Shown piece by piece: positions 1,926 through 44,491 of a stretch of DNA of 51,379 nt. The stretch lies in NCBI GenBank assembly GCA_017541265.1, contig JAFXZK010000138.1:1-51379 (forward strand), in the 5' to 3' direction. A program made the position numbers and the translations under genes. The DNA comes from Bacteroidaceae bacterium (lineage in GTDB: Bacteria; Bacteroidota; Bacteroidia; Bacteroidales; Bacteroidaceae). The notes below the pieces were generated by a model. That model ran no database searches and was not told the DNA's origin. It saw nothing but the letters and a program-made list of their open reading frames with translations. Every line of letters begins with the position of its first letter. Within the stretch, counting starts at the first letter, position 1.

Positions 1926-4900
1926 ATGGAGATACAGAAGCTGCTTGGTGTCTTTGCCAGGCATCCGGGCGTGAAAGCCCTTGCGAAGGAGTTGCAAAAA
2001 GACTCCAACAAAACGATACAACTTTCTGGATTACAGGGAAGTTGCACTCCTCTTGTATTCGCTTCGCTACAGCCCCTCTCTTCTCCATTCATTTTCATTC
2101 TCGACGACGAAGAAGAGGCCGGGTATTTCTATCACGACCTCACACGTCTGCTCGGTGATGAGCAGGTGCTCTTCTTCCCAAGCTCATACAAGCGTGCCAT
2201 CAGGTTCGGGCAGCGCAACTCTGGTCAGGAGATTTTGAGGACGGAAGTGCTGAGCCGTTTGGGCACTCCCCAAAAGGGGGAGGACAAAGACTCCCTCCCC
2301 TTAAGGGACGGACGGGGTGGGGCTTTCATTGTCACTTATCCCGAAGCTCTTTGCGAACTGGTGGTGACCAAGCAGAAGCTCAGCGAACAGACCTTGAGCC
2401 TGAGTGTCGGAGAGCACGTCGACATCATGTTCGTGCAGGAGACTCTGCTCAGTTTCGGCTTCAACAAGACGGATTACGTCTATGAGCCAGGGCAGTTCGC
2501 TGTGCGCGGCAGCATCATCGATGTCTATTCCTACTCGCACGAGCTGCCTTACCGCATCGACTTCTTTGGCGACGAGGTGGACAGCATCCGCACTTTTGAG
2601 GTACACACACAGCTCAGCCGCGACAGGCAGCAAAACATCACGCTAATAGCTCTTCCCCTTTCCCCTTCCCAAAAGGGACGGGGAGATAAGCCTCTCCCTT
2701 TAGGGGAAGGTTCTTCCCTTTGGTCAGGCGCAGGCGGAGGAGAGGAGGTTTCGTCCTTCCTGAAGTTCCTGCCGGAAGATGCAATCCTTGTTACGAAAGA
2801 CCTGCTCTTCCTCTGCGAAAGTGTGGAGCGGACTTATAATGAGGGTTTCAGCCGTTCGGCTGTCATAGAGCAGAGGGAAGCCCCCTCCCCGCTCCCCCTT
2901 TTGGGGAGTGCTTCATTGTCGTCTGAAGCGCTTTTGGTCAATCCCGAAGATTTTAAACGGCAAATCCTCGACTTTAAGCGTATTGAGTTGAAGACACTCC
3001 CCCAAAGGGGGAGCTGGGAGGGGGCTTCTATTCAATTCGGGACTCACCCGCAGCCTGTCTTCCACAAGAACTTCGACCTCCTCATCGACGCCTTCAAGAA
3101 GTTGCAGGACGCCGGCACAAACATTTATATATTGGCCGACAGCGCGAAGCAGACCGACCGCCTTGAGAGCATCTTCAGCGACAAAGAGACAAGCATACGC
3201 TTTACGCCCGTTGACCACGCGCTACACGAAGGCTTCATCGACGACGACCTCCATGTTGCCATCTTCACCGACCATCAAATCTTCGACCGCTACCATCGCT
3301 ACAGCCTTCGAAGTGACAAGGCGACAGGAGGCAAAGTGGCATTAACATTGAAGGAACTGCAGCAGTTCGAGATAGGCGACTATGTGGTGCATATCGACTA
3401 CGGCGTAGGGCGTTTCGGCGGCTTGGTGAGGATTCCGATTCAGAACAATCAGAATAATCAGAGTAATCCGAATACTCCGAACTATCAGGAGGTCATCAAG
3501 ATAATCTACTCTGGCGACGATACCGTATATGTCTCTATTCATTCCCTGCACAAGGTTTCCAAGTATAAAGGCAAAGAGGGTGAGCCTCCGCGCATCAGCA
3601 AACTTGGTACGGGGGCTTGGGAGCGCATGAAGGAACGCACGAAGAAGAAGATAAAGGACATTGCCCGCGACCTTATCCTGCTTTACAGCCGCCGCCGCGA
3701 AGAGAAAGGCTTTGCCTTCAGCGGCGACAGCTTCATGCAGCACGAGTTGGAAGCAAGTTTCCTCTATGAAGACACGCCCGACCAACTCAAAGCGACACAT
3801 GATGTCAAGGCGGACATGGAGCGGCAGCGCCCGATGGACCGTCTCGTCTGCGGCGACGTGGGCTTCGGCAAGACGGAAGTAGCCGTCCGCGCCGCCTTCA
3901 AGGCTTGTGCCGACAACAAGCAAGTGGCAGTACTCGTGCCGACAACCGTTCTTGCCTACCAGCACTACCATACCTTCATGGAACGCCTGAAGGACTTTCC
4001 CGTCAAGATAGAATACCTGACTCGCGCACGTACGCCACAGCAGACGAAAGAGATACTCGAAGGACTGAAGAACGGCTCGGTCAACATCATCATCGGCACA
4101 CACAAGCTCATCGGCAAGAGCGTACAGTTCAAGGACTTGGGATTGCTCATCATCGACGAAGAGCAGAAGTTCGGCGTCTCGACGAAAGAGAAGCTCCGCC
4201 AGCTGAAGGTGAATGTCGATACCCTCACCCTGACGGCAACGCCCATACCGCGAACCTTGCAGTTCTCCCTGATGGGAGCAAGGGACTTGAGCGTCATCCA
4301 GACGCCGCCGCCTAATCGTTATCCCATACAGACGCAGCTCTGCCAGTTCAATGCTGAAGTGATTGCCGAAGCCATCAACTTTGAGATGAGCCGTAGCGGG
4401 CAGGTTTTCTTCGTCAACAACCGCATCAGCCAGCTGCCCGAACTTGCCGAAGTTGTGCGTAAGCATGTGCCTGATGCCCGTGTTGCCGTGGCTCACGGAC
4501 AGATGCCGCCCGAGGAACTGGAGAAGATAATGGTCGATTTCATGAACTACGACTACGATGTTCTTGTCTCTACCACCATCATCGAGAGCGGTCTCGACAT
4601 ACCTAACGCCAACACTATCATCATCAACGGCGCACACAACTTCGGCCTGTCCGACCTCCACCAGATGCGGGGCAGGGTAGGGCGTTCCAACAAGAAGGCA
4701 TTCTGCTACCTGCTTTCGCCGCCGCTCTCCGCACTCAACATCGATGCACGCCGCCGCTTGCAAGCTATCGAGAACTTCAGCGACCTGGGCAGCGGCATAC
4801 ATATCGCTATGCAAGACCTCGACATTCGTGGTGCCGGCAATCTGCTCGGAGCAGAGCAGAGCGGCTTTATTGCCGACCTCGGCTACGAGACGTATCAGAA

Positions 4901-5480
4901 GATTTTGTCACAAGCTGTCACGGAGCTTCGCAATGACGAGTTCCCGGAACTCAATACCGAGGAAGAAAAGGCAAACGGTAAATCGTCTGCCGAGGAGGAA
5001 ATGGTAAATAGCAAATGGGTAGATGACTGCCAGCTTGACAGCAACCTGCCGATGTACTTCAGCGAGGACTATGTGCCGACTTCGAGCGAAAGGATGCTGC
5101 TTTACCGCGAACTTGACGGAATGGAGCGCGACGAGGATGTGGAGCGGTTTAGGCAAAGGCTCATCGACCGCTTCGGCCCGCCGCCGCAGGAAGCAGAAGA
5201 CTTGCTGAAGGTTGTCACGCTTCGCAGGCTTGGCAAGCATTTCGGCTGTGAGCGCATCGTCCTGAAGAATGGACATGCAAGGCTCTTCTTCGGTCCTGCC
5301 GACGACAGTCCTTTCTACGATGGACGCATCTTCGGACACGTTCTTGACTTTGCCACCGCAAACGCCTACCGCTGCCACTTCAAGGAAGACGCCAAAGGCA
5401 AAAGCCTTCTTATTGACGACGTTGGCACCATCGCAGAAGCAGTGGATATCCTGAAACAGATTAAGAATTATGAATTGTGA
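1926..5480 (+). CDS. mfd: Transcription-repair coupling factor Mfd
   Basis: Mfd is an ATP-driven translocase that removes RNA polymerase stalled at DNA damage and recruits UvrA. The protein has 1184 aa. Order: UvrB-like N-terminal module (residues 1 to about 380); RNA polymerase interaction domain near 475-560 (FEIGDYVVHIDYGVGRF); helicase with Walker A GDVGFGKT at 643-650 and the DEEQ box at 745-748; helicase C-terminal part with SGLDIPNANT and the QMRGRVGRS motif; then the C-terminal TRCF domain. Four GC-rich repeat segments are inserted in frame in the N-terminal module at about residues 113-133, 243-274, 318-329 and 357-368. An Asn/Gln-rich stretch sits at 505-520, and another irregular insert lies in the C-terminal part (nt about 4962-5022). 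The reading frame stays open throughout, so the gene is probably functional. It is followed by recN after 10 bases. Confidence 0.97.
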   Translation: MEIQKLLGVFARHPGVKALAKELQKDSNKTIQLSGLQGSCTPLVFASLQPLSSPFIFILDDEEEAGYFYHDLTRLLGDEQVLFFPSSYKRAIRFGQRNSGQEILRTEVLSRLGTPQKGEDKDSLPLRDGRGGAFIVTYPEALCELVVTKQKLSEQTLSLSVGEHVDIMFVQETLLSFGFNKTDYVYEPGQFAVRGSIIDVYSYSHELPYRIDFFGDEVDSIRTFEVHTQLSRDRQQNITLIALPLSPSQKGRGDKPLPLGEGSSLWSGAGGGEEVSSFLKFLPEDAILVTKDLLFLCESVERTYNEGFSRSAVIEQREAPSPLPLLGSASLSSEALLVNPEDFKRQILDFKRIELKTLPQRGSWEGASIQFGTHPQPVFHKNFDLLIDAFKKLQDAGTNIYILADSAKQTDRLESIFSDKETSIRFTPVDHALHEGFIDDDLHVAIFTDHQIFDRYHRYSLRSDKATGGKVALTLKELQQFEIGDYVVHIDYGVGRFGGLVRIPIQNNQNNQSNPNTPNYQEVIKIIYSGDDTVYVSIHSLHKVSKYKGKEGEPPRISKLGTGAWERMKERTKKKIKDIARDLILLYSRRREEKGFAFSGDSFMQHELEASFLYEDTPDQLKATHDVKADMERQRPMDRLVCGDVGFGKTEVAVRAAFKACADNKQVAVLVPTTVLAYQHYHTFMERLKDFPVKIEYLTRARTPQQTKEILEGLKNGSVNIIIGTHKLIGKSVQFKDLGLLIIDEEQKFGVSTKEKLRQLKVNVDTLTLTATPIPRTLQFSLMGARDLSVIQTPPPNRYPIQTQLCQFNAEVIAEAINFEMSRSGQVFFVNNRISQLPELAEVVRKHVPDARVAVAHGQMPPEELEKIMVDFMNYDYDVLVSTTIIESGLDIPNANTIIINGAHNFGLSDLHQMRGRVGRSNKKAFCYLLSPPLSALNIDARRRLQAIENFSDLGSGIHIAMQDLDIRGAGNLLGAEQSGFIADLGYETYQKILSQAVTELRNDEFPELNTEEEKANGKSSAEEEMVNSKWVDDCQLDSNLPMYFSEDYVPTSSERMLLYRELDGMERDEDVERFRQRLIDRFGPPPQEAEDLLKVVTLRRLGKHFGCERIVLKNGHARLFFGPADDSPFYDGRIFGHVLDFATANAYRCHFKEDAKGKSLLIDDVGTIAEAVDILKQIKNYEL
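2262..2326 (+). repeat. Family B palindromic repeat inside mfd, copy 1
   Basis: Two GC-rich palindromic pieces in tandem, with CTCCCCAAAAGGGGGAG and then CTCCCCTTAAGGGACGG, followed by GGGGTGGGG. They encode residues 113-133 of Mfd, a Gly/Asp/Pro-rich stretch foreign to the UvrB-like fold. The frame is preserved. Confidence 0.8.
2652..2747 (+). repeat. Family B palindromic repeat inside mfd, copy 2
   Basis: Contains CCCTTCCCAAAAGGGACGGG and then CCTCTCCCTTTAGGGGAAGG, encoding residues 243-274 of Mfd. The end carries TCAGGCGCAGGCGGA (2724-2738), a 15-bp string also present at 14404-14418 in the GH99-like gene. Confidence 0.75.
2877..2912 (-). repeat. Family B palindromic repeat inside mfd, copy 3 (inverted)
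   Basis: CCCCCTCCCCGCTCCCCCTT followed by TTGGGGAGTG is the same element in opposite orientation to copy 4. It encodes the Pro/Leu-rich stretch at about residues 318-329 of Mfd. Confidence 0.75.
2994..3030 (+). repeat. Family B palindromic repeat inside mfd, copy 4
   Basis: CACTCCCCCAAAGGGGGAG, then CTGGGAGGGGGCTTC. It encodes residues 357-368 of Mfd (PQRGSWEGAS). It is the complement of copy 3, lying 80-90 bases downstream of it. Confidence 0.75.
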
Positions 5481-7185: not shown

Positions 7186-8530
7186 AGAATTTGCTACCGC
7201 TCTCGATAAAGTCCGTGCGTTTATAGAATGTGAGGCTTTGCTTCCTCCTCCCTCCGAAGAGAGAGGGGAGTGTCTGTTTGTTGCCATTAGCGGCGGGGCG
7301 GACTCAACGGCTTTGCTGCTCATTATGAAAGAGCTGGGCTACAAAGTGCAGGCACTCCACTGCAACTTCCATCTGCGAGGCGAGGAGTCCGACCGCGACC
7401 AAGCTTTCGTGGAGGGGCTTTGCAGAAAGCATGATGTGCCTTTGTCCGTGCGCCACTTCCAGACGGAAGAATATGCGAAACGACACGGCATCAGCATCGA
7501 GATGGCAGCAAGGGAACTGCGGTACCAATGGTTCCTTGAAGAAATTGAAAAATTGAAAAAGTTAAAAATTGAAGGCGTTTCACCTTTTCACCCTTTCATC
7601 TTTTCACCTTTTATCGCTGTTGCCCATCATCGTGACGACCAAGCAGAGACGCTATTACTCAACTTGCTGCGAGGCACAGGTCTGCGCGGTTTGGCAGGCA
7701 TGCAGCCGAGGCACGACAGCATCATCCGTCCGTTGCTTTGTTTGAGCCGCGACGAGATTCTCGCTTACCTCGAAAGCAAGGGGCAGACATACGTCACGGA
7801 CAGCTCCAACGCCGAGCGTATCGCTCTTCGTAACAAACTTCGTCTCGATGTAATGCCCTTGCTGCGAGACATCAGCTCTGCCGTCGATGAGCATCTCTGC
7901 CTTGCTGCCGACAACATCCGCCACAGCCTGCCATATTATATAAAAGGTATAGAGACGGCAGTCAAAGAGCTTGGCATCACAGCAGACGCCTTCCCTTTGT
8001 CCGCCCTTTCATCCCGCACCTTACTACATGAATGGCTTGCCGGCAACGGCTTCAATAGAACGCAGGAAGGGGAAATGCTTCAGGCAAAAAGGTGTGAAGT
8101 CGGCAAGATGTGGTACTCCACCACACATACCGTTCTTCGCGACAGAGAAGCATTACTTCTAATCCTCCTTAAGGCGGATGAAGGGTCTATGCCTTTACTC
8201 AGGCAGGAGATAGTTTCTTGTATTGGCGAGACCGGTCCTGGTATTGCCTACTTCGATGCAGACCTCTTGACAGCCCCCATCAAGGTGCGCCCTGTCCGCG
8301 AGGGCGATGCCTTTGTTCCTTTTGGCATGAAAGGAAGAAAATTGGTGAGCAATTACCTTACCGATAAAAAAGTCAACCGATTGCAAAAGGCAAAGCAGTT
8401 CGTCGCTACCTGCGGGAACGACATCATCTGGCTTATCGGCCATCGTAGCGACAACCGTTATAGGGTCACGGACGCGACCCGTCGCATCCTCAAACTAACC
8501 GTGGCTAATTGCCAAACTAGGCGTGTCTAA
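7175..8530 (+). CDS. tilS: tRNA(Ile)-lysidine synthase TilS
   Basis: TilS attaches lysine to C34 of the tRNA-Ile(CAU) anticodon using ATP, which changes both codon reading and charging. The 451 aa contain the PP-loop SGGADS at residues 39-44, the conserved HCNFHLRGEES, AVAHHRDDQAETLLLNLLRGTG, and a C-terminal substrate-binding domain with KVNRLQKAKQ. Repeat DNA encodes three parts of the protein. The first codons lie in a 23-bp repeat (7182-7204). Residues 21-32 come from a family B element. Residues 123-145 (EIEKLKKLKIEG, then SPFHPFIFSPF) come from GAAAAATTGAAAAAG and CACCTTTTCACC words just before the HHRDDQ motif. The stop codon lies inside a 22-bp tandem array. The start overlaps recN. 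Confidence 0.95.
   Translation: MKREEFATALDKVRAFIECEALLPPPSEERGECLFVAISGGADSTALLLIMKELGYKVQALHCNFHLRGEESDRDQAFVEGLCRKHDVPLSVRHFQTEEYAKRHGISIEMAARELRYQWFLEEIEKLKKLKIEGVSPFHPFIFSPFIAVAHHRDDQAETLLLNLLRGTGLRGLAGMQPRHDSIIRPLLCLSRDEILAYLESKGQTYVTDSSNAERIALRNKLRLDVMPLLRDISSAVDEHLCLAADNIRHSLPYYIKGIETAVKELGITADAFPLSALSSRTLLHEWLAGNGFNRTQEGEMLQAKRCEVGKMWYSTTHTVLRDREALLLILLKADEGSMPLLRQEIVSCIGETGPGIAYFDADLLTAPIKVRPVREGDAFVPFGMKGRKLVSNYLTDKKVNRLQKAKQFVATCGNDIIWLIGHRSDNRYRVTDATRRILKLTVANCQTRRV
7182..7204 (+). repeat. 23-bp dispersed repeat at the tilS start
   Basis: A 23-bp string containing GAAGAATTTGCTACCGCTC is identical to 21990-22012, between pth and pepT. In tilS it is translated (REEFATAL). The other copy is non-coding. 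Confidence 0.85.
7235..7270 (+). repeat. Family B repeat inside tilS
   Basis: CTTCCTCCTCCCTCCGAAGA followed by GAGAGGGGAGTG encodes PPPSEERGE between the N-terminal helix and the strand leading to the SGGADS loop. The frame is kept. Confidence 0.65.
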
Positions 8531-8615
8531 TTGCCTAATTAGGCGTGTCTAATTGCCCAATTAGGCGTGGCTAATTGATAAAGTAAACGTGCCAAGTTGA
8601 TTAACTTGACACGTT
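8506..8615. repeat. 22-bp tandem array (family A) after tilS
   Basis: Five consecutive units of exactly 22 bp: 8506-8527, 8528-8549, 8550-8571, 8572-8593 and 8594-8615. The first three are nearly identical (TAATTGCC..TAGGCGTG); the last two are degenerate. Within unit 3, TAATTGCCCAATTA is a palindrome. The last unit and its left neighbour fold into a 13-bp stem (8586-8615, one mismatch). The array lies between the convergent genes tilS and the fasciclin gene, and the tilS stop codon is inside it. Confidence 0.85.
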
Positions 8616-14652: not shown

Positions 14653-14732
14653 GCAACTACATGTGCCTAATTGGGCAACTACATGTGCCTAATTGAGCAA
14701 CTAGACGGGGCTATTTGAGCAACTAGACGGGG
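14653..14732. repeat. 22-bp tandem array (family A) after the GH99-like gene
   Basis: Three full units of exactly 22 bp (14653-14674, 14675-14696, 14697-14718) and a 14-bp partial unit. Units 1 and 2 differ at one base; unit 3 shares GCAACTA and TTGA. The core GCCTAATTGGGCAACTA resembles the reverse complement of the unit after tilS. The array again fills the gap between convergent genes. Confidence 0.85.
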
Positions 14733-14738
14733 ATGTTT

Positions 14739-22030: not shown

Positions 22031-23287
22031 ATGAACTCAGAACTAACTGAAAGATTTCTAAAATATGTTAGCTTCGACACGCAGAGCAGCGAAGAGAACG
22101 AAGCACAATGCCCAAGCACTGAGAAGCAGTTTGCTTTGGCTGAATACTTGCGCGACGAGCTGAAAGCTCTCGGATTGACTGAAGTTGAGATGGACGAGCA
22201 CGGCTACGTCTATGCCACTCTGCCTGCCAATACCGACAAGCAAGTGCCCACCATCGGCTTCATCGCCCACATGGACACAAGCCCCGACTGCAGCGGCGCC
22301 GACATCAAGCCCCGCATCATCAAGAACTACGACGGCTCGGACATCGTGCTCTGCAAGGAAGAAAACATTGTGACGACCGTCAGCCAGTTCCCCGAACTCA
22401 AGCAGCACATCGGCGAAGACCTCATTGTCACCGACGGTCACACGCTCCTCGGTGCTGACGACAAGGCTGGCATCGCAGAGATAGTCACCGCAATGACTTA
22501 CCTGATGGCTCATCCCGAAATCAAGCACGGCAAGATTCGCGTCGCCTTCAATCCCGACGAGGAGATTGGCGCAGGCGCACATCTGTTCAATGTCGAGAAG
22601 TTTGGCTGCGAGTGGGCTTACACGATGGACGGCAGCGAGGTGGGCGAACTGGAGTATGAGAACTTCAACGCCGCCAGCGCAAAGATACACATCAAGGGCT
22701 GCAACGTACACCCTGGCTATGCCAAAGGCAAGATGAAGAACGCTTGTATCATTGCTTCAGAGTTTGCTGCCTTAATGCCTGAAAATGAACGCCCAGAGAC
22801 AACCGATGGTTACATGGGCTTCTTCCACCTCACTGGCATGAGCGGCACCGTAGAAGAGGCTCAGCTCTCCTACATCATCCGCGACCACAACAGCGGCATA
22901 TTCCAGCTCCGCAAGCAAGTTGTCCTCGATATTGCCGAGAAGCTGAACGCCAAGTACGGACAGGACACCGTGACGACAGAAGTAAAAGACCAGTATTATA
23001 ATATGTTGAGTCAGCTGCAAGACAAGCCGCAGGTGACAGACATTGCAAAGAAGGCCATCGAAGAGGCTTGCGGCTTCTGCAACGTCGTTCCCATCCGCGG
23101 CGGAACGGACGGCGCACAGCTCAGCTTCAAAGGTCTCCCCTGCCCCAACATCTTCGCAGGCGGACTGAACTTCCACGGTCGCCACGAGTTCGTGCCCATT
23201 CAAAGCATGGAGAAGGCTATGATGACGGTGGTGAACATCTGCAGAATGGCAGCCCCACCCCAACCGTCTCAAAAGGAGAGGGGGTAA
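22031..23287 (+). CDS. pepT: Peptidase T (tripeptide aminopeptidase)
   Basis: A zinc-dependent M20B peptidase that trims the N-terminal residue from tripeptides in the cytoplasm, 418 aa. Metal and catalytic motifs: [23 protein letters not shown] with the bridging Asp, and [12 protein letters not shown] with the catalytic and metal-binding Glu pair. [12 protein letters not shown] and [14 protein letters not shown] complete the C-terminal catalytic part. The last ten residues ([10 protein letters not shown]) do not belong to the family; they come from a family B repeat that also supplies the end of the gene. The ATG at 22031 follows several ACTATGA word repeats. The gene sits between pth and the S4 gene. 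Confidence 0.95.
23248..23287 (-). repeat. Family B repeat at the pepT 3' end
   Basis: Read on the minus strand it is CCCCCTCTCCTTTTGAGACG followed by GTTGGGGTGGGGCTGCC, matching the copies in fmt and uvrA. It replaces the natural C-terminus of PepT and the stop lies at its edge. Confidence 0.8.
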
Positions 23288-23790: not shown

Positions 23791-25854
23791 ATGATAGACC
23801 GCATAACCGTCGATAAGATACTTGATGCTGCGAACATCGTGGACGTCGTCTCCGACTTCGTCACGTTGAAGCGTGCCGGAGCAAACTTGAAGGGGCTTTG
23901 CCCTTTCCACGACGACCACACCCCATCTTTTGTGGTGTCGCCTGCACGCAACACTTGCAAGTGCTTTTCTTGCGGCGAAGGCGGTACGCCTGTCGGCTTC
24001 ATCATGAAGCACGAACAGCTCTCATACCCCGACGCTCTGCGATACCTTGCCAAGAAGTACGGCATCAAGATTGAGGAGAAGGAGCTGACACAAGACGAGA
24101 TTCAGTCGCGTGGCGACCGCGAGAGCATGTTCATCCTCAACGAATGGGCGCGGGACTGGTTCAAGAAGCAACTTTGGGACACGCAAGACGGCAGAGCCAT
24201 CGGTCTCGCCTACTTCCGGGGGCGCGGCTTCAGGGACGACATCTTGAAGAAGTTTCAGGTGGGTTACTGCCCTAACAGCAAGGAGCATTCACTCTCTGCC
24301 GCTGCGCTGAAGGAAGGCTATCAGGAACGCTATCTCGTGAACAACCAGAACGAGATGGAGCCGCGCCTAAGCATCGGCACAGGATTGAGCCTGAAACGCG
24401 AAGATGGCAAGCTGCGCGACCGTTTCTTCGGCCGAGTCATGTGGCCTATTTATACGTTCAGCGGACGTGTGGCAGGTTTCGGTGGGCGTGTGCTCGACGC
24501 AGCCACCAAAGGCGTTGCCGTCAAGTACCAGAACTCGCCGGAAAGCATTATCTACAGCAAACGCAAAGAGCTTTTCGGCCTCTTCCAGGCACGTCAAGCC
24601 ATCCGCAAAGCCGACCTCTGCTATCTCGTAGAGGGCTATACCGATGTGATGGCGATGCACCAGCAAGGCGTGGAGAATGTCGTAGCATCCTCTGGCACAG
24701 CACTTACAACCGACCAGATTCACCTCATTCACCGCATTACAAGCAACATTACGGTCATCTTCGACGGCGACGACGCAGGCATTCACGCCAGCGAACGCGG
24801 CATAGACATGCTACTGGCCGAGGGCATGAACGTCAAGCTGCTCCTTTTGCCAGACGGCGACGACCCCGACAGCTTTGCACGCAAGCACACTGCCACCGAG
24901 TATCAGCAATACTTGCAAGAGAATCAAGTCGATTTCATCACCTACAAGGCCACGCACGCTATCGACGCGCGAAAAGGCGAACCCGATGCAGAAGAGCGGC
25001 TCATACACAATGTGACAGAAAGTATTGCCGTCATCCCCGACGAGATAAAGCGTACCGTATATATTCAGCACGCAGCGCAACAGCTGAAAATGCCCGAGCG
25101 TCTCATTGCCGGAGCTGTTAATGCACAGATGGAAAAACTGCGCATCGAGAGACAAAAAGAGCAGGAAAGGGAGCAGAGACAACAGACGGTTCAATCCGGC
25201 ACGCCACTTACAGGGACAAAAGATATTACAATTCCCCCAGCCAAAGGAGAAGGCAGAAAACTTAGCCAAGAAGCATCAATAATCCAGATGATTATTCGGC
25301 ACGGGGAAAAAGTCATGTGCACCATCGAGGACGAGAACGGACAGGAAGTGCCCCTCACCGTAGCAGAGTACATTTCCTACAGCCTCAAAGACGACGACAT
25401 TCAGCTGCAGACACCTGTTTATAGGCAGATACTCGAAGAAGCTGTTGCAAACGCACACGCACCTAACTTCTGTGCAGAACAATACTTCAACAACCATCCC
25501 GACGAAGAAATTCGCGAACTTGCCTTCAGGCTTGGCACCGATTCGGTAGAGCTGAGCAAACTGTTTGAAGTCCCCACCTCCGGGGAGGACGAGGAGGGGA
25601 AGGAAAACCTCCCATCCCAGAAAGAGGCGCTTGGCGGCGGAACGCGTCTCGATGAAGTCGTCCCCAAACTTATCGCAGGCTATAAGCTGAACATCATGCA
25701 GCAATCACTGGAAGACATCATTGAGCAAATGAAGCGTCCAGAGGTAAAAGAAGACAAAGGGAAATACCGTCAACTGATGACCGATTTCAACAACAAGTCC
25801 AAGCTTGTAAAAGAACTTGCAAAAGAATGTGGCGAACGTGTCGTGCTCAAATAA
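23791..25854 (+). CDS. dnaG: DNA primase DnaG
   Basis: DnaG makes RNA primers at the replication fork. The protein has 687 aa. The N-terminal CHC2 zinc ribbon has Cys37, His40, Cys58 and Cys61 (LCPFHDDHTPSF and CKCFSCGEGG). The RNA polymerase basic domain contains FFGRVMWPIY and GFGGRVLD. The TOPRIM core has VEGYTDVMAMHQQG and IFDGDDAGIHASERG. The C-terminal third is divergent, as usual for the DnaB-binding domain, and carries irregular repeat-derived inserts near residues 475-495 and 594-617 (SGEDEEGKENLPSQKEALGG). The frame remains open to TAA. It is convergent with the outer-membrane protein gene. Confidence 0.96.
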   Translation: MIDRITVDKILDAANIVDVVSDFVTLKRAGANLKGLCPFHDDHTPSFVVSPARNTCKCFSCGEGGTPVGFIMKHEQLSYPDALRYLAKKYGIKIEEKELTQDEIQSRGDRESMFILNEWARDWFKKQLWDTQDGRAIGLAYFRGRGFRDDILKKFQVGYCPNSKEHSLSAAALKEGYQERYLVNNQNEMEPRLSIGTGLSLKREDGKLRDRFFGRVMWPIYTFSGRVAGFGGRVLDAATKGVAVKYQNSPESIIYSKRKELFGLFQARQAIRKADLCYLVEGYTDVMAMHQQGVENVVASSGTALTTDQIHLIHRITSNITVIFDGDDAGIHASERGIDMLLAEGMNVKLLLLPDGDDPDSFARKHTATEYQQYLQENQVDFITYKATHAIDARKGEPDAEERLIHNVTESIAVIPDEIKRTVYIQHAAQQLKMPERLIAGAVNAQMEKLRIERQKEQEREQRQQTVQSGTPLTGTKDITIPPAKGEGRKLSQEASIIQMIIRHGEKVMCTIEDENGQEVPLTVAEYISYSLKDDDIQLQTPVYRQILEEAVANAHAPNFCAEQYFNNHPDEEIRELAFRLGTDSVELSKLFEVPTSGEDEEGKENLPSQKEALGGGTRLDEVVPKLIAGYKLNIMQQSLEDIIEQMKRPEVKEDKGKYRQLMTDFNNKSKLVKELAKECGERVVLK
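25570..25641 (+). repeat. Family B-type insert inside dnaG
   Basis: CCCCACCTCCGGGGAGGACG followed by AGGAGGGGAAGG and CCTCCCATCCCAG: a degenerate palindromic GC-rich insert encoding a Gly/Glu/Pro-rich stretch in the C-terminal domain of primase. More diverged than the mfd and fmt copies. Confidence 0.6.
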
Positions 25855-28796: not shown

Positions 28797-31578
28797 ACAA
28801 AAGATTTGCGTGGAAGGCGCACGCGTCCACAATTTGAAGAATGTGGACGTGCAGATTCCGCGTAACAGCCTTACTGTCATCACAGGTCTAAGCGGCAGTG
28901 GCAAGTCGTCTTTGGCCTTCGACACTATTTATGCAGAAGGCCAGCGTCGTTATATTGAGACCTTCAGTGCCTACGCCCGCAACTTTCTCGGAGGCATGGA
29001 ACGTCCCGATGTGGATAAGATAACAGGTCTCAGCCCTGTCATAAGCATCGAACAGAAGACAACCAACAAGAATCCCAGAAGCACTGTCGGCACAACGACC
29101 GAGATTTACGATTTTCTGCGTCTGCTCTACGCCCGTGCAGCTGATGCCTATTCTTACATCAGTGGCGAATTGATGGTGCGACATACAGAAGAACAGATTC
29201 TTGACCTGCTTCTCAATGAATACCACGACAAGCGCATTGTCTTGCTGGCTCCGCTTGTCAAGAACCGCAAGGGACACTATAAGGAACTCTTTGAGACCAT
29301 TCGTCGCAAAGGTTACATATATGTCCGTGTTGACGGCGAGATGAAAGAGATTCAGCCAGGCATGAAACTCGACCGCTACCGCAACCACAGCATAGAGGTT
29401 GTCATCGACCGCCTTCGTGTTCAGGACAAGGATGACAAACGGCTCATCGGAAGTGTCGCAACGACGATGAAACAAGGCGAAGGCGAGATGCTCGTCTGCG
29501 ATATGGACACAAACGACATCCGACACTACAGCAAACATCTGATGTGCCCCACAAGTGGCATTTCATACCACGACCCTGCGCCACACGATTTCTCGTTCAA
29601 CAGTCCGCAAGGTGCTTGCCCGCGCTGCAAGGGGTTAGGTTTCGTACACATTATCGACCGAAACAAAGTCATCCCCGACCCATCCCTTTCGCTCAGACAA
29701 GGCGGCTTCGCTCCACTTGGCAAAGCCAAGCAGGCAATGATATTCTGGCAGGTGGAAGCAGTCCTTGAACAATATGGCTGTTCGATGGACACGCCACTTG
29801 GCGAAGTGCCTGATGAAGCTATCAACGAGATATTGGAGGGCAGTTCACAAAGGCTTCGCATCCCAGCCGACAGGGCAAAGACCACGAACGATGTCTATAC
29901 CACGTTCGACGGATTGGTCAAGTACATCGACCAGATGAAAGACGCTGAAGTTGGTGCTGCCGCTCAAAAGTGGGCAGAGCAGTTCAGTGGGGTTTGCGAA
30001 TGTCCTGAATGTCACGGTCAGCGTCTGAGGAAAGAGTCCTTGCATTTTCTGCTTGACGGCAAAAGCATTGCCGAAGTCTCTGCTCTTGAGCTGGGAGAAC
30101 TCTACGAATGGCTCGATGGTCTTGATAAGCGTATCAGCGAACGCCAAAGAGCCATTGCCGCTGAAATCATCAAGGAAATAAAGACGCGGCTGAAGTTCCT
30201 GCTTGATGTCGGTCTTGACTATCTTTCCCTTTCTCGCCCCTCGATGAGCCTTTCCGGTGGTGAGAGCCAGCGCATACGTCTTGCTACACAGATTGGAAGC
30301 CAGCTTGTAGGTGTTCTTTACATTCTCGATGAACCAAGCATCGGACTTCATCAGCGCGACAACATCAAACTCATCCGTTCGCTCAAGGCTTTGCGCGATG
30401 CAGGCAATACGGTGCTTGTCGTGGAGCATGACCGCGAGATGATGGAGAATGCTGACTATATCGTTAACATCGGTCCCCTTGCCGGCCGACGCGGCGGCAA
30501 AGTCGTCTTTCAGGGAACATATAAGGACATGTTAAAGACAGACACGCTGACGGCAAGGTACTTGAAGGGAGAAGCCTCCCCCATCCCCTCCAAAGAAGGG
30601 CAGAATGGCAGCGGTTTAACTCCTTCTCCTTCGGAGAGGGCTGGGGTGAAGCTTATGGGTTGTACCGGCCACAACCTTAAGAACATAGACGTTGAGATAC
30701 CTCTTGGAAAGCTCATCTGCATCACAGGTGTCAGTGGCAGCGGCAAGAGTTCCCTCATCAGCGAAACGCTCTACCCCATCCTCAGCAAACATTTCTACCG
30801 TTCGCTCACTGACCCTCTGCCTTATTCTTCCATAGAGGGACTGGAGAACATCGACAAAGTCATCGACGTGAACCAAAATCCATTGGGACGCACGCCACGC
30901 TCCAATCCTGCCACCTACACAGGAGTCTTCATGGACATACGCAACCTCTTTGTCGAACTTCCCGAAGCCCGAATCAGAGGTTACAAGCCCGGGCGCTTCT
31001 CCTTCAACGTCAAGGGCGGACGCTGCGAATGCTGTGGCGGCAACGGCTACCGAACCATCGAAATGAATTTCCTGCCGAACGTCTTTGTTCCCTGTGAGGA
31101 ATGTCGCGGAAAACGTTACAACCGTGAGACGCTCGAAGTGCGATACCGGGGGAAAAGCATCGCCGACGTGCTCGACATGACCATCAACCAGGCGGTCGAG
31201 TTCTTTGCTGCCCAGCCCACCATCTTGGGTAAGATAAAAGTCTTGCAGGAAGTCGGGCTTGGCTACATCAAGCTTGGTCAGCCAAGCAATACGCTTTCGG
31301 GAGGTGAGAGCCAACGTGTGAAACTTGCAACCGAGCTTGCCAGACGCGACACCGGTCGCACGCTCTACATCCTCGACGAACCCACCACAGGCCTACACTT
31401 CGAGGACATCCGCGTCCTGCTTGAGGTGCTCCGTAAACTTGTCAACAAGGGCAACACCATCATCATCATAGAACACAACCAAGACATCATCCGCGCTGCC
31501 GACTGCATTATTGATATGGGACCAGGTGGCGGTCGCAATGGCGGTCAGATACTTTATTGCGGAGAACCGAAGGAATAA
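28789..31578 (+). CDS. uvrA: Excinuclease ABC subunit UvrA
   Basis: The damage-recognition ATPase of nucleotide excision repair, partner of UvrB and Mfd. I start at the ATG at 28789 (MSEQKICVEGARVHNLKN), the family N-terminus; the frame is open 30 codons further upstream through the preceding gene. The protein has about 929 aa. First half: Walker A GLSGSGKSS, zinc module with CPRCKGLG, signature LSGGESQRIRLATQ. Second half: Walker A GVSGSGKSS, zinc finger CECCGGNGYRTIEM and CEECRGKRYN, signature LSGGESQRVKLATE. Residues about 595-624, between the halves, are encoded by two family B repeats in tandem (IPSKEGQNGSG, TPSPSERAGVK). The gene is convergent with pheS. Confidence 0.96.
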   Translation: MSEQKICVEGARVHNLKNVDVQIPRNSLTVITGLSGSGKSSLAFDTIYAEGQRRYIETFSAYARNFLGGMERPDVDKITGLSPVISIEQKTTNKNPRSTVGTTTEIYDFLRLLYARAADAYSYISGELMVRHTEEQILDLLLNEYHDKRIVLLAPLVKNRKGHYKELFETIRRKGYIYVRVDGEMKEIQPGMKLDRYRNHSIEVVIDRLRVQDKDDKRLIGSVATTMKQGEGEMLVCDMDTNDIRHYSKHLMCPTSGISYHDPAPHDFSFNSPQGACPRCKGLGFVHIIDRNKVIPDPSLSLRQGGFAPLGKAKQAMIFWQVEAVLEQYGCSMDTPLGEVPDEAINEILEGSSQRLRIPADRAKTTNDVYTTFDGLVKYIDQMKDAEVGAAAQKWAEQFSGVCECPECHGQRLRKESLHFLLDGKSIAEVSALELGELYEWLDGLDKRISERQRAIAAEIIKEIKTRLKFLLDVGLDYLSLSRPSMSLSGGESQRIRLATQIGSQLVGVLYILDEPSIGLHQRDNIKLIRSLKALRDAGNTVLVVEHDREMMENADYIVNIGPLAGRRGGKVVFQGTYKDMLKTDTLTARYLKGEASPIPSKEGQNGSGLTPSPSERAGVKLMGCTGHNLKNIDVEIPLGKLICITGVSGSGKSSLISETLYPILSKHFYRSLTDPLPYSSIEGLENIDKVIDVNQNPLGRTPRSNPATYTGVFMDIRNLFVELPEARIRGYKPGRFSFNVKGGRCECCGGNGYRTIEMNFLPNVFVPCEECRGKRYNRETLEVRYRGKSIADVLDMTINQAVEFFAAQPTILGKIKVLQEVGLGYIKLGQPSNTLSGGESQRVKLATELARRDTGRTLYILDEPTTGLHFEDIRVLLEVLRKLVNKGNTIIIIEHNQDIIRAADCIIDMGPGGGRNGGQILYCGEPKE
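30571..30655 (+). repeat. Family B repeats inside uvrA
   Basis: CCTCCCCCATCCCCTCCAAA followed by GAAGGG, then CTCCTTCTCCTTCGGAGAGG followed by GCTGGGGTGAAG. The second element is nearly the same as the fmt copy at 44348. Both are translated in frame in the linker between the two ATPase halves. Confidence 0.85.
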
Positions 31579-33648: not shown

Positions 33649-34672
33649 GAACACCTTTGGCATTGATGTTCAATGCCGCGAACTCATCACCTACGATTCT
33701 GAGCAGGCGCTTCGAGAAGCCTTGAAGCGTATTCACATACAATATAAAGGCTTGCCAATCCTGCATATCGGCTGTGGAAGTAACCTTCTCTTTCTCAATG
33801 ACTATAATGGCATCGTGTTAAAGTCAAGCATAAAGGGCGTAAACCTCTTGAACGAGAGTGATGACGAGGTGCTTGTAGAGGTGGGGGCCGGTGAGATTTG
33901 CGACGACTTTATTGCACTCGCCATCCGTCGCGGATGGTATGGAATGGAGAACCTTTCCCTCATCCCCGGGCAGATAGGTGCTGCTGCCGTGCAGAACATC
34001 GGAGCTTACGGTGTGGAGGCTTGCGACGTGATTGAGGAGGTGAAGGGCATCAGCCTTACAGACGGCACAGCGCACTCTTGGAGGCGCGACGAATGCAAGT
34101 ACGGCTACAGGCAAAGTATCTTCAAAGAAGAGCTTTGGGGCAAGTACGCTATCACCCGTGTCACGTTCCGCCTCAGCAAGCACTTTGTGCCGAAGCTTCA
34201 GTATGGCGGCCTCATCAAGGCAATTGAGCAGGCTGGTTTTTCAGAGGACACGCTTACGGCAGAGCAGTTGCGGCAAATCATCATTGACATTCGTCGAGCC
34301 AAGCTTCCAGACCCTAAAGAGCAAGGCAACGCAGGCAGCTTCTTCAAGAATCCTGTCGTGTCGAAGGAGAAGGCAGAGCACTTGCTTTCCAAGTACCCAG
34401 CAATGCCCCACTACCCTGCTGACGAGGGACGAGTCAAACTGGCGGCAGGCTGGCTGATTGAGCAAGCAGGCTGGAAGGGAAGAAGCCTTGGTCCTGCTGC
34501 CGTACACGACCGCCAGGCATTGGTGCTCGTCAATAAGGGAGGAGCCTCAGGGCACGATATACAAAGGCTTTGCGAAGCCATCAAGAAAGATGTAGCCGAC
34601 AAGTTCGGCATAGAACTATCGCCAGAAGTAAATTTAATTGACAATTGGACAATTGGACAATCTGACAATTAA
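33638..34672 (+). CDS. murB: UDP-N-acetylenolpyruvoylglucosamine reductase MurB
   Basis: A FAD enzyme that reduces UDP-GlcNAc-enolpyruvate to UDP-MurNAc with NADPH, the second committed step of peptidoglycan synthesis. The 344 aa are of the type I (E. coli-like) form. FAD-binding motifs are HIGCGSNLLFL and LIPGQIGAAAVQNIGAYGVE. The catalytic serine lies in GNAGSFFKNPVV and a conserved Glu in LSPEVNLI. The last residues (DNWTIGQSDN) extend beyond the family end and are encoded by a family C repeat. The gene overlaps the DUF4348 gene and precedes the PhnP-like gene by 32 bases of the same repeat. Confidence 0.96.
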   Translation: MRIENTFGIDVQCRELITYDSEQALREALKRIHIQYKGLPILHIGCGSNLLFLNDYNGIVLKSSIKGVNLLNESDDEVLVEVGAGEICDDFIALAIRRGWYGMENLSLIPGQIGAAAVQNIGAYGVEACDVIEEVKGISLTDGTAHSWRRDECKYGYRQSIFKEELWGKYAITRVTFRLSKHFVPKLQYGGLIKAIEQAGFSEDTLTAEQLRQIIIDIRRAKLPDPKEQGNAGSFFKNPVVSKEKAEHLLSKYPAMPHYPADEGRVKLAAGWLIEQAGWKGRSLGPAAVHDRQALVLVNKGGASGHDIQRLCEAIKKDVADKFGIELSPEVNLIDNWTIGQSDN

Positions 34673-34686
34673 ATTGTGAAATTGTC
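34640..34686 (-). repeat. Family C repeat at the murB end
   Basis: GACAATTGGACAATTGGACA and the following bases are the reverse complement of the elements at 36313-36358 and 51137-51182, lacking one 8-bp unit. It supplies the MurB C-terminal tail and stop and the spacer to the next gene. Confidence 0.8.
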
Positions 34687-34704
34687 AAATCGTAAAATTG
34701 TGAA

Positions 34705-35466
34705 ATGAAGATTACATTCCTCGGAACAGGCACAAGCATCGGCGTACCGCAAATAGGTTGCCAGTGCGAAGTTTGCACCAGCAGCGACCCTCGCGACCGC
34801 CGCTTGCGTGCTTCGGCGCTTTTCGAGGAGGGCAACACACGGCTTCTGCTCGATTGCGGTCCTGACTTCCGTGAGCAGATGCTCCGTATCAAGATGACGA
34901 AACCGCTTGATGCTGTGCTCATCACCCACGAGCATTATGACCATGTCGGGGGCATCGACGACCTCCGGCCCTTTACCTTCGACCGCAACCTTCCACTTTA
35001 TGCCGACGACTATGCCTGTCGACATCTGCGCCAGCGCCTACCCTACTGCCTTGTACGAAACACTTATCCGGGCGTTCCGCAGTTGCATTTACAGGAGATA
35101 AAGGAAGGCGACAAGTTGCAGTTCGGTCCGCTTAGTGTCACAGCTCTTCGCGTTATGCACGGCGAACTGCCTATTCTCGGTTATCGCATCGGTGATGTGG
35201 CTTACCTCACAGACATGACCGAACTGTTCGATTCGTCTTTACCTTTAATAAAAGACATCAAACTGCTCATTATCGGAGCCTTGCGGCATACGCCTCACAA
35301 GACGCACCAAACCATAGAGCACGCCATTGAGTTCAGTCGAAGCCTGGGCAACATTCCCACCTACTTCATCCACATGTGCCATCAAGTCGGGCTTTATGAA
35401 GTCGAGGAGCGAAAACTTCCTGCTGGCTTCCACTATGCCTACGACGGTCTCGTGCTTGAGGTGTGA
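34705..35466 (+). CDS. PhnP/RNase Z-like metallo-beta-lactamase-fold hydrolase
   Basis: A 253-aa cytoplasmic metallohydrolase. The metal-binding motif is THEHYDHVGG with His75, His77, Asp79 and His80. The N-terminus FLGTGTSIGVPQIGCQCEVC, with the paired cysteines, is typical of the PhnP group (phosphoribosyl cyclic phosphate phosphodiesterase and relatives). Later ligands lie in LRVMHGELPILGYRIGDVAYLTD and FIHMCHQVG. No phosphonate genes are nearby, so the true substrate in this lineage is unknown. Its place after murB may be a Bacteroidales gene order rather than a shared pathway. Confidence 0.85.
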   Translation: MKITFLGTGTSIGVPQIGCQCEVCTSSDPRDRRLRASALFEEGNTRLLLDCGPDFREQMLRIKMTKPLDAVLITHEHYDHVGGIDDLRPFTFDRNLPLYADDYACRHLRQRLPYCLVRNTYPGVPQLHLQEIKEGDKLQFGPLSVTALRVMHGELPILGYRIGDVAYLTDMTELFDSSLPLIKDIKLLIIGALRHTPHKTHQTIEHAIEFSRSLGNIPTYFIHMCHQVGLYEVEERKLPAGFHYAYDGLVLEV

Positions 35467-36059: not shown

Positions 36060-36689
36060 TTATATAATGTTTAGTTTCTTCATTTCGGAATAGAGTCTCT
36101 GCACGGGAAGCCCCATGACGTTGAAGTAGGAACCCTCGATGGAAGTGACGCCAATGTAGCCTATCCATTCTTGGATGCCGTATGATCCGGCTTTGTCAAA
36201 CGGACGATAATGCGTGACATAATGGTCGATTTCGGCTTCCGAGAGTTGGGCGAAAGTGACCTGAGAGACGGAAGAGAAAGAATGGTGCTTGATTTGACAA
36301 TTTGACGATTTCACAATTTCACAATTAAATTGTCCAATTGTCAGATTGTCCAATTGTCCAATATAAGAGAGTGTTACGCCTGTCACGACCTGATGCGTCT
36401 TGCCGGAAAGCTTGCGGAGCATCTCTTTTGCCTCTGCCTCGTCTGCGGGTTTGCCAAGCACTTCCCCATCAAGCCAGACGATTGTGTCGGCTGTGATGAG
36501 CAGTTCATCGGGTTCAAGAGTATAGGCCGCAGCCTTCTTTCGGCTGATGTATTGAGGTATCTCCTCCATCTGAAGCCCATCGGGATAGGACTCGTCAAGC
36601 CCTTGAAGCGTGCGGACTTCAAAGTCCAGACCAAGCCCGGAAAGGAGTTCCCTGCGGCGCGGAGAGTTACTTGCTAAGACTATTTTCAT
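36060..36689 (-). CDS. maf: Maf-family nucleotide pyrophosphatase
   Basis: Maf proteins hydrolyse non-canonical or dTTP/UTP-type nucleoside triphosphates. The family start MKIVLASNSPRRRELL begins at the ATG at 36689; a GTG 15 bases upstream is less likely. The protein has 209 aa. Conserved residues: SxxR in SNSPRRRELL, ITADTIVWLDGEVLGKP with the catalytic Asp, and DKAGSYGIQEWI. Between VVTGVTLSYI and FSSVSQVTFAQLS the protein carries about 25 extra residues (111-135; GQLDNLTIGQFNCEIVKSSN) encoded entirely by a family C repeat. The insert falls in a surface hairpin in known Maf folds and leaves the active-site motifs intact, so activity is plausible. Confidence 0.93.
   Translation of the reverse strand: MKIVLASNSPRRRELLSGLGLDFEVRTLQGLDESYPDGLQMEEIPQYISRKKAAAYTLEPDELLITADTIVWLDGEVLGKPADEAEAKEMLRKLSGKTHQVVTGVTLSYIGQLDNLTIGQFNCEIVKSSNCQIKHHSFSSVSQVTFAQLSEAEIDHYVTHYRPFDKAGSYGIQEWIGYIGVTSIEGSYFNVMGLPVQRLYSEMKKLNII
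36287..36361 (-). repeat. Family C repeat inside maf
   Basis: The stretch 36313-36358 matches 51137-51182 at 45 of 46 positions and, inverted and shortened, 34640-34686. In maf it is translated in frame on the minus strand and adds about 25 residues. Confidence 0.9.
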
Positions 36690-41862: not shown

Positions 41863-41866
41863 CTGG

Positions 41867-41966: not shown

Positions 41967-41997
41967 TTTGAATTATGGATTAATTGTCGTAACTTTG
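41967..41997 (+). promoter_or_regulatory. Promoter of the methylmalonyl-CoA epimerase gene
   Basis: TTTG 41967-41970, 19 bases, TAACTTTG 41990-41997; it diverges from the promoter at 41867-41897. The leader of about 75 bases contains ACTCATAAACTTACAAACTC words. Confidence 0.8.
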
Positions 41998-42078
41998 CAG
42001 AGCAAATGAGCCTATTGGCTCCATTAACTCATAAACTTACAAACTCAAAAACAAATTAACTTACAAACCAAACACATC

Positions 42079-42483
42079 ATGAAGATTTCACGCATTGAAC
42101 ACTTAGGCATTGCCGTGCAGAGCATCGACGCAGTGCTGCCCTATTTCCGCGACGTTCTCGGACTGGAAGTTTACAAAACAGAAGTTGTAGAAGACCAGAA
42201 GGTGAAGACTGCTTTCCTCAAGGTCGGCGAAGTGAAGCTGGAGCTGCTGGAGCCTACATGCCCCGAGAGCACCGTGCAGAAGTTCCTCGACAACGGCGGT
42301 AAGGGCGTTCACCACGTTGCCTTCAAGGTTGAGGACGGCGTAAGCGAAGCACTCGCTATGTGCGACGAGAAGGGCATCCGCCTCATCGATAAGGCTCCCC
42401 GCAACGGTGCCGACGGCCTGCACATCGCATTCCTCCACCCGAAGAGCACTTGCGGCATTCTCACAGAACTCTGCGAAGAATAA
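42079..42483 (+). CDS. mce: Methylmalonyl-CoA epimerase
   Basis: A VOC-fold metalloenzyme that interconverts R- and S-methylmalonyl-CoA in the succinate-to-propionate route typical of Bacteroidales. The 134 aa fit the family. Metal ligands: His8 in RIEHLGIAV, His in GVHHVAFKV, and Glu in LTELCEE at the C-terminus. LKVGEVKLELLEPT and LHIAFLHPKSTCGILTEL are diagnostic. In many relatives it lies next to the mutase or decarboxylase subunits; here it is alone, with its own promoter and terminator. Confidence 0.93.
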   Translation: MKISRIEHLGIAVQSIDAVLPYFRDVLGLEVYKTEVVEDQKVKTAFLKVGEVKLELLEPTCPESTVQKFLDNGGKGVHHVAFKVEDGVSEALAMCDEKGIRLIDKAPRNGADGLHIAFLHPKSTCGILTELCEE

Positions 42484-42498
42484 ACAGACCTCTCCAAA

Positions 42499-42523
42499 CC
42501 TCCCCGCAAGGGGAGGCTTTTTT
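42499..42523 (+). terminator. Terminator after mce
   Basis: CCTCCCC, loop GCAA, GGGGAGG, then CTTTTTT. A strong intrinsic terminator 16 bases after the stop codon. Its stem resembles the family B repeat, which may have been recruited here as a terminator. Confidence 0.9.
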
Positions 42524-42541
42524 AACTCTAAACTCTATGCT

Positions 42542-43543: not shown

Positions 43544-43573
43544 TTGTCAAATTGAAAACCGTCAAATTGTCAA

Positions 43574-44491
43574 ATGAGAATCGTTTTCATGGGTACGCCC
43601 GACTTCGCGGTGCAGTCGCTTCGGCGGCTTATCGAGGAGGGTTGCAATGTGGTGGGCGTTGTCACAATGCCCGACAAACCTATCGGCAGGCATCACGATG
43701 TGCTGCAGAGTAGTCCCGTCAAGAAGTTTGCTCAGGAGAAAGGCATCCCTGTCCTGCAACCCGAGAAGCTGCGCGACGAGACATTCCTTGCTGAACTCAA
43801 AGCCCTCAAGCCTGACTTGCAGATTGTCGTTGCCTTCCGCATGTTGCCGCAGGTGGTTTGGGCTTTGCCGCCCCTCGGAACTTTCAACCTTCACGCGGCC
43901 CTGCTGCCTCAATATCGCGGAGCAGCTCCCATCAATTGGGCAATCATCAACGGCGACAAAGAGACAGGCATCACGACGTTCTTCCTTGACGAGCAGATTG
44001 ATACGGGGCGCATCATCCTGCAGGAGCGCACCCCCATTGCTCCGACGGATTGCGCCGAGGACGTACACGACAAACTGATGATGCAAGGTGCCGAACTGGT
44101 CATCAAGACGGTGCGGCTCATCGAGAGCGGTGAGGCCAAAGCAACCGACCAAAGCCTCTTTATGACGGACGAGCCTCTACGTCCTGCCCCGAAGATATTC
44201 AAGGAAACCTGCCGAATCAAGTGGCAGGAGCATACGCTCGAGAGTGCCTATAACTTCATCCGGGGGTTGAGTCCCTACCCTGCTGCTTGGACAAAAGTTA
44301 TCGCAAACGGCAAAGAGACGGAGATGAAGATATTTAAGGCAGCTTGTTCCCCCTCTCCTTTGGAGAGGGATGGGGTGAGGCTTTCTCTGCCGGGCGGTTA
44401 TCTCTCTCTCAAAGAAGTGCAGCTTGCAGGCAAGAAACGTATGTCGATAGCCGACCTGCTTCGCGGAACAAAGATTGAAATAATTCAATGA
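43574..44491 (+). CDS. fmt: Methionyl-tRNA formyltransferase
   Basis: Fmt formylates initiator Met-tRNA with 10-formyl-THF. The 305 aa are close to the family length. The start IVFMGTPDFAVQSLRRL is canonical. The catalytic set is Asn-His in FNLHAALLPQYRGAAPINWAI and Asp in LDEQIDTGRIIL. The C-terminal OB-like domain begins near residue 205 and carries a family B repeat at about 259-275 (SPSPLERDGVRLSL), just before the strand GGYLSLKEVQLAGKK. The gene is flanked by family C-type words upstream (AATTGTCAAATTG) and AATTCAAATTTAATAAATTC downstream. Confidence 0.95.
   Translation: MRIVFMGTPDFAVQSLRRLIEEGCNVVGVVTMPDKPIGRHHDVLQSSPVKKFAQEKGIPVLQPEKLRDETFLAELKALKPDLQIVVAFRMLPQVVWALPPLGTFNLHAALLPQYRGAAPINWAIINGDKETGITTFFLDEQIDTGRIILQERTPIAPTDCAEDVHDKLMMQGAELVIKTVRLIESGEAKATDQSLFMTDEPLRPAPKIFKETCRIKWQEHTLESAYNFIRGLSPYPAAWTKVIANGKETEMKIFKAACSPSPLERDGVRLSLPGGYLSLKEVQLAGKKRMSIADLLRGTKIEIIQ
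44346..44385 (+). repeat. Family B repeat inside fmt
   Basis: CCCCCTCTCCTTTGGAGAGG followed by GATGGGGTGAGG: the clearest form of the element, with a central 8-bp inverted repeat CTCTCC..GGAGAG. Translated in frame. Confidence 0.9.

Follow-up and report, generated by a model that had tools for sequence, protein, structure and literature searches.

A REPIN-like palindromic repeat within coding sequence of a Bacteroidaceae genome, with native loop residues missing at most compared REPIN sites

Repetitive extragenic palindromic (REP) sequences can occur as REPINs, inverted REP doublets whose definition places them in extragenic sequence. In the available portion of the 2011 account (PMC3116915), 93% of 430 doublets were inverted, a REP lay beside each REP-associated tyrosine transposase (RAYT) examined, and in P. 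fluorescens SBW25 the REPs were nearly all extragenic, with only 14 of 1,067 16-mers overlapping genes. A 2013 paper, to the extent of the text at hand, places GTAG- and CGTC-tagged REPs, single or dimeric, inside open reading frames that include uvrA, DNA ligase, RNA helicases and tRNA synthetases (PMC3733652). Rickettsia palindromic elements (RPEs) measure ∼150 bp in the section of PMC10969869 consulted, RPE-4 and RPE-6 being CGTC-tagged. REPs have mostly been studied as extragenic sequences, and their presence in genes treated as exceptional. Here we describe a GC-rich palindromic repeat for which most sampled copies are in coding sequence. It came to attention in a 51,379-nt stretch of a Bacteroidaceae bacterium (contig JAFXZK010000138.1, positions 1 to 51,379; hereafter the window), where it lies within mfd, uvrA, fmt and other housekeeping genes, and at most REPIN sites that could be compared with relatives part of the native loop is gone.

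The host genome (GCA_017541265.1) is an 87% complete draft, for which 3.24 Mb was used for scaling. Its nearest named relatives (66–68% identity in TilS) are metagenome bins that carry the labels Bacteroidaceae, Prevotellaceae or Bacteroidales, and several have yak or sheep stomach in their titles; the host lineage is one found in ruminant stomachs.

Structure, abundance and placement of the repeat

The palindromic elements are real and occur above chance. The unit is a REP-like GC-rich palindrome of 34–36 nt, often doubled head to head to give a REPIN-like hairpin of ∼95 nt. At least two subfamilies exist: type A, GC-ACTCCCCCAAAGGGGGAG-C-GGGGAGGGGG-CT, represented in mfd at 2878 and 2994, and type B, CTCCCTCTCCTTTGGAGAGGGnTGGGGTGAGGCTT, found in fmt, uvrA and pepT. 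A sequence-only reading of the window had described one element family in housekeeping genes; the repeats stand, the single family does not.

Copies were located with a sequence-only profile built from 23 host copies, all from the first sample described next and the window; detection is biased toward intact copies. Since types A and B differ in pairing register, a structure-aware covariance model was abandoned. The first sample comprised 20 host-genome stretches (295 kb) fetched ahead of the profile search. Four of its contigs (C42, C49, C67 and C122) were picked for Y1 matches, the repeat having already been seen in one of them; the remainder amounts to 215 kb with 16 copies. A second sample of 20 further stretches was picked since the profile search had found copies there, and the total host sequence scanned was 722 kb, part of it selected for copies.

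These 722 kb hold 147 non-overlapping copies of at least 9 bits and 43 pairs less than 130 nt apart. The pairs are strongly oriented: 39 are head to head (−+), three are −−, one is ++ and none has the reverse arrangement (+−), and the head-to-head share in the first 20 stretches plus the window is 6 of 7. Many spacers between paired units are 26–31 nt long and semi-conserved, others are 39–82 nt, and that of the mfd pair is mostly native gene sequence. Folded as DNA, the three REPINs tested reach −46.6 to −49.8 kcal/mol (z −9.3 to −10.9). The boundaries are fixed, with AG before CCCCC in 28 of 31 REPINs and CT after GGGGG in 28 of 31. No target-site duplication was found at the 31 REPIN junctions, where the mean repeat was 1.45 nt versus 1.28 nt in shuffled junctions (shuffle maximum 1.74). 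Rfam at its gathering score gave no match in 109 kb containing several copies (the window and loci L183, L195 and L191).

The expectation of further copies elsewhere in the genome was borne out by at least 150 profile matches dispersed over many contigs. Among 25 same-genus genomes, host included, the number ranges from 0 to at least 150; 21 have at least one match and four have none, and the highest counts after the host are 138 and 135, the latter in relative G020. Matches are present in 2 of the 16 genomes searched from other families of the order. A broader draw across the order, limited to 34 scored candidates per genome, gives matches at E 0.001 or better in 16 of 198 genomes, the host among them. 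For 25 loci from same-genus relatives, a hand count placed the best copy within an open frame of at least 200 codons in 18, an open frame being no proof of a gene.

Gene calls came from an in-house codon score, and some N-terminal cases may be wrong starts. With this scoring, 20 of the 24 first-sample copies of at least 12 bits lie inside called genes, three are intergenic and one is at an edge, a genic share (20/24) that is what random placement predicts. Observed versus expected counts are 11 versus 16.7 for gene interiors, 9 versus 3.0 for the first or last 30 codons, 3 versus 3.4 for intergenic sequence and 1 versus 0.9 across an edge. When the four Y1-picked contigs are left out, 13 of 16 copies are genic, two intergenic and one at an edge, with observed (expected) counts as follows: interior 7 (11.0), terminal 6 (1.9), intergenic 2 (2.5) and edge 1 (0.6). 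There is no flight into intergenic space; the repeat shows a moderate depletion in gene interiors and an excess at gene ends, as would be expected if selection had filtered the copies. In the stretches selected for copies, 68 of 82 are in genes, and 65 called genes carry copies in the 722 kb, part of which was selected for them. Host genes include mfd, uvrA, fmt, ligA, queA, hisH, xseA, spoT/relA and leuS.

Type A genic copies use all six frames (19/14/12/10/6/2 of 63), and the encoded peptides are short and rich in Pro, Gly, Ser and Arg, with recurrent words such as ALPQRGSGEGA and SPLPAPPLGEC. Few copies lie outside genes, and out-of-frame genic insertions must therefore be rare, which argues that the segments are probably translated as part of the protein. 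Three long neighboring proteins at locus L007 (11996, 15574 and 16642) each contain a type B copy, similarly placed toward the C-terminus, so that the copy may have multiplied with the C-terminal part of the gene. At L012 (15688–15837) and L196 (15778–15893), REPIN halves flank the apparent start region of a gene.

Host loops compared with those of relatives

At 16 sites beyond those in the window, the joined flanks were searched in five relatives, whose loops were classed as native or repeat by eye. The proteins LigA, RmlD, QueA, HisH, XseA, LeuRS and a SpoT/RelA protein score above the NCBIfam cut-off; Dxs, PurM, LplA, QueG, a TcdA/ThiF-like protein, a DEAD-box helicase and an aminotransferase-like protein score below it, and the two others have no NCBIfam family at E 1e-20. 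In relative G008 the host element is lacking at all 16 sites, and no loop there exceeds 17 residues. Judged from the alignments, the host element is lacking in same-genus relatives at most, not all, compared sites, and the variability of these stretches suggests that they are surface loops.

Eleven of the 16 are comparable REPIN sites, two having been excluded because the relatives' loops are themselves repeats and three because the host has a solo REP. Native loss was calculated by hand for each site as the REPIN length plus 6 (for the end triplets) minus three times the difference in loop residues. At 10 of the 11 comparable sites the net gain is below the REPIN length and 15–51 nt of native loop is missing; the element therefore replaces the loop rather than only adding to it. 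The gain at the remaining site (L199, no family) is at least the REPIN length, with no native loss. Native loops gone from the host include [DE]GIPGDG of LigA, present in three relatives, and LS[DE]GKD of Dxs, present in four, as well as those of LplA (in two relatives), HisH (in three) and QueG (in three). At the SpoT solo copy the host has 12 residues where G008 has 13.

The same sites are often occupied by repeats in G020, which carries one at 10 of 12 readable host sites: two belong to type A, as in the host, six are GC-rich palindromes of other kinds and the last two are tandem palindromes without relation to it. Repeats are present at 3 of 9 host sites in G005 and at 2 of 16 in G008. G020 retains the native loop in LigA and Dxs, and its genome has two copies of XseA, one with a repeat and one native. 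That G020 has native LigA and Dxs loops and none is left in the host argues for a change after the split from G020.

In the window, the 19-mer from which the sequence-only reading had started gives, at up to three mismatches, four matches at three places, versus 0.02 expected by chance. It is exact once, in fmt; pepT and uvrA each have two mismatches, and the fourth match is the fmt site on the opposite strand. Sites had been proposed in mfd, tilS, pepT, dnaG, uvrA and fmt, all six of which score above the NCBIfam cut-off. The profile recovers seven window copies of at least 12 bits (four in mfd and one each in pepT, uvrA and fmt), all inside genes, and scores the mfd unit at 2263 at 10.1 bits, below the 12-bit cut-off. 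It did not find the copies in tilS and dnaG or the first in uvrA (30570), which rest on eye and alignment. The reading frame is open through every window site named, as had been claimed. The features are as follows.

1926..5480, + strand: mfd gene, 1184 aa, with five palindromic units in variable linkers (NCBIfam TIGR00580, 934.9 bits; same-genus alignment)
2263..2282, + strand: short hairpin unit, mfd insert 1 (10.1 bits; residues lacking in 8/8 close relatives)
2290..2325, + strand: mfd copy, insert 1 (28.7 bits; lacking in 8/8 close relatives)
2692..2710, − strand: partial mfd copy, insert 2, in a variable stretch at ∼2652–2740 (12.0 bits; extra residues versus relatives)
2878..2911, − strand: type A mfd copy, insert 3, left half of a head-to-head pair (28.7 bits; stretch of 81 nt versus 60 nt in G005)
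2994..3027, + strand: type A mfd copy, insert 4, right half of the pair, separated from the left half by 82 nt that is mostly native mfd (30.8 bits)
7231..7270, − strand: degenerate copy near the tilS N-terminus (eye and alignment)
23250..23284, − strand: type B copy that supplies the final 12 codons of pepT (22.4 bits; context; NCBIfam PepT)
25568..25603, + strand: degenerate copy in a dnaG linker (by eye; loop length versus relatives)
30570..30602, − strand: first uvrA copy, left half of an inverted pair (seed sequence; stands for a linker of equal length)
30620..30654, + strand: second uvrA copy, right half of the inverted pair (26.3 bits; 8 extra residues versus 8/10 relatives)
44349..44383, + strand: type B copy in fmt (exact 19-mer match; 29.0 bits)

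The two uvrA copies, previously taken to be in tandem, are thus an inverted pair. Comparisons covered mfd, uvrA, tilS, dnaG and fmt among the window genes and were made with same-genus relatives only. Insert 1 of mfd is lacking in all eight relatives of 80–86% identity, and insert 4 (2994..3027) replaces a linker of roughly equal length; the same mfd linkers hold other palindromes or tandem repeats in other species. The uvrA stretch has 30 residues versus 22 in 8 of 10 relatives, the remaining two (G013 and G020) carrying other repeats, and the tilS stretch has 16 residues versus 11 in 9 of 10 relatives, G020 having 17 with similar sequence. For dnaG, the host loop of 27 residues is longer than that of seven of nine relatives, equal to one and shorter than one, which weakly suggests an insertion. 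The fmt loop has 18 residues in the host and 13–45 in relatives (three of nine shorter, one equal, five longer) and its length therefore does not show insertion; G013 has two palindromes within this same fmt loop. The proposal that the extra residues are insertions accordingly survives for mfd insert 1, uvrA and tilS with respect to most relatives, whereas fmt and dnaG are not clear insertions.

Other repeats are also present. Inverted arrays of an 8-nt tandem unit, GACAATTG / CAATTGTC, lie at or near gene ends in the window (34635–34710, 36288–36363, 45793–45835 and 51123–51190), and a repeat of this 8-nt type is found in the mfd linker of G013 (L031). At 8471–8604 and 14655–14744 the window also has a 22-nt tandem repeat (AACTAGGCGTGTCTAATTGCC, with variants) in inverted copies. 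Further tandem repeats occur in relatives' uvrA (L059 and L061), purM (L246 and L252), queA (L251) and TcdA-like (L247) genes.

Candidate mechanisms

We favor, with a probability of about 60%, a REPIN-like non-autonomous mobile repeat that spread through the host genome and most likely owes its movement to a REP-type transposase acting in trans, with copies in tolerant loops surviving. The mobile unit would consist either of one small REP hairpin or of a head-to-head pair separated by a spacer, and the pair would fold as single-stranded DNA into one long hairpin. A REP-type (HUH, Y1) transposase would move it in trans, the cognate enzyme being either absent from the draft genome or unrecognized there. 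Copies landing in frame in variable loops, single units being mostly stop-free (80 of 113 are without a stop in all six frames), would then pass the filter of selection. HUH chemistry leaves no target-site duplication, and the doublet form, the fixed ends and the absence of target duplication fit a HUH-type REP transposase. A miniature inverted-repeat transposable element of the DDE type generates a target-site duplication of a few bases, unlike the 31 REPINs here.

The host genome has five Y1/HUH matches, of which only L003 passes the NCBIfam REP-transposase cut-off. L003 was not accepted as the cognate, its flanks carrying another palindrome, CTGGCGGATTTGTAATCCGCCAG. Neither L001, which is above the NCBIfam IS200 cut-off and has GCCCAGGGC/GCCCTGGG-type repeats on its flanks, nor L002, whose adjoining palindrome is GCACTAAAGTGC-type, was retained. 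The genus carries many Y1/HUH proteins of 330–550 aa with weak REP-transposase scores (L002, L004, most of L142–L165, L172, L173, L175 and L178). These have an extra C-terminal region, VLVTPGISxGEK...FEACAxGxLLILAPW, and several (e.g. L147, L161 and L172) have repetitive sequence in the linker that joins the HuH and Tyr parts.

Several observations weigh against the favored account. No copy was found in the 41 Y1/RAYT loci scanned in the host and related genomes (38 distinct genes, 133 kb; the fifth host gene, C79, 516 aa, is outside this set), and the palindromes flanking Y1 genes, where seen, differ from the studied element. REP-transposase matches are commoner in copy-rich genomes (Spearman 0.50, p 0.010, n = 25), which speaks for such an enzyme, but the correlation ignores kinship and completeness, and G020, with its 135 profile matches and at 62% completeness, has no REP-transposase or Y1 match. 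Two single units folded as DNA did no better than shuffles (z −1.0 and −1.6). No terminal GTAG or CGTC tag was found; in 83 copies taken with their 14-nt flanks, GTAG occurs at any place in 8 and CGTC in 7. Among the pairs, all six frames are free of stops in only 5 of 31; together with the figure for single units, this rules out an element that is stop-free in every frame. Finally, simple insertion does not explain why native residues are gone while the ends of the element are intact: either insertion removes target bases, or the loops were trimmed or recycled later.

Later trimming or turnover, in which older repeats opened the loops, native residues drifted off and new repeats land in old ones, is a substantial possibility, though one to which we give somewhat less than an even chance. 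It would account for the repeats of G020 at host sites, 8 of those 10 being of another kind than the host's, and many of the loops vary, by eye, among relatives. The LigA and Dxs loops argue the other way, since they are native in G020 and replaced in the host by a REPIN with no native loop left, though detection favors intact copies. Removal of target bases can be framed more boldly: unrelated families of hairpin repeats would repeatedly replace the same 15–50 nt loop segments in frame, deleting the target during insertion, such that the loops serve as landing pads across species. We regard this as doubtful; if it were true, linkers of essential enzymes would be rewritten by selfish DNA. A route that dispenses with a transposase seems to us unlikely: in repair or replication, a strand that has broken or stalled would use a hairpin repeat elsewhere as its template and rejoin 15–50 nt further on, thereby exchanging a native segment for the repeat. 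The missing loop sequence at 10 of 11 comparable REPIN sites, the lack of target duplication, the other kinds of repeat in the same loops of other species and the lack of a transposase beside any copy in 41 loci all agree with such copying. However, the fixed unit boundaries suggest ends recognized by an enzyme, one site has no native loss, and trimming after insertion would look identical.

The repeats might instead be kept because their products are useful, as flexible linkers or binding motifs or, through the hairpin, in mRNA regulation. The high genic share and the recurring peptide words would suit this idea, but the use of all six frames and both orientations yields unrelated peptides and the same loops of relatives hold other repeats or native residues, making it very improbable. 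Some mitochondria skip GC-rich hairpins in genes, and an element skipped in translation or spliced from RNA could likewise be harmless. We consider this barely credible here, because genic copies run through open frames and the leftovers are few (three intergenic and one edge copy of 24), whereas about two thirds of skipped copies would be expected out of frame.

Implications and relation to known systems

If the first sample is typical, ∼170–190 genes per genome would carry a copy (17 in 295 kb and 11 in 215 kb, scaled to 3.24 Mb). The genus would then offer a natural test of which protein loops accommodate new sequence, and of the way in which hairpin repeats select or delete their targets. 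For annotators, shared words of the ALPQRGSGEGA or SPLPAPPLGEC kind stem from repeats, not from shared domains.

As far as the available text of PMC3116915 describes them, REPINs resemble the present element in their inverted doublets (39 of 43 pairs here), less conserved spacer, long single-strand hairpin and high copy number. They differ in that 20 of 24 copies here are genic and none was found in 41 transposase loci. The Bacteroidetes TnpA-REP subclass 2.6, in the part of the 2018 description consulted (PMC6006769), has the motifs NHLH, WQ and YIHQNP, which host L003 shares, and L003 likewise has flanking repeats of its own; its repeat CTGGCGGATTTGTAATCCGCCAG differs from the studied element.

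A parallel with Rickettsia had been drawn from the sequence, and it applies in part. As with RPEs, palindromes are open in frame in many unrelated genes (PMC3733652 and PMC10969869, within the sections available). Unlike RPEs, the units are 34–36 or ∼95 nt, lack the CGTC tag of RPE-4 and RPE-6 and belong to a Bacteroidales host; they are REP/REPIN-like and, at the compared REPIN sites, mostly replace loop residues.

Whether the family had been described was also asked. No open-licence paper was found whose title or abstract opening describes this repeat family in Prevotella or Bacteroidales. In-frame intragenic REPs as such have been on record since 2013 (PMC3733652), although those carry GTAG or CGTC tags, which were not found here. 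Those families, in the accessible part of that paper, are mostly intergenic and end in the tag, whereas the element here is mostly genic; the same part gives no account of loop replacement by tagged REPs, which is seen here. What is new, measured against that text, is the loss of native loop at REPIN sites. The family combines the doublet form of REPINs with the coding habit of intragenic palindromes, without GTAG or CGTC tags.

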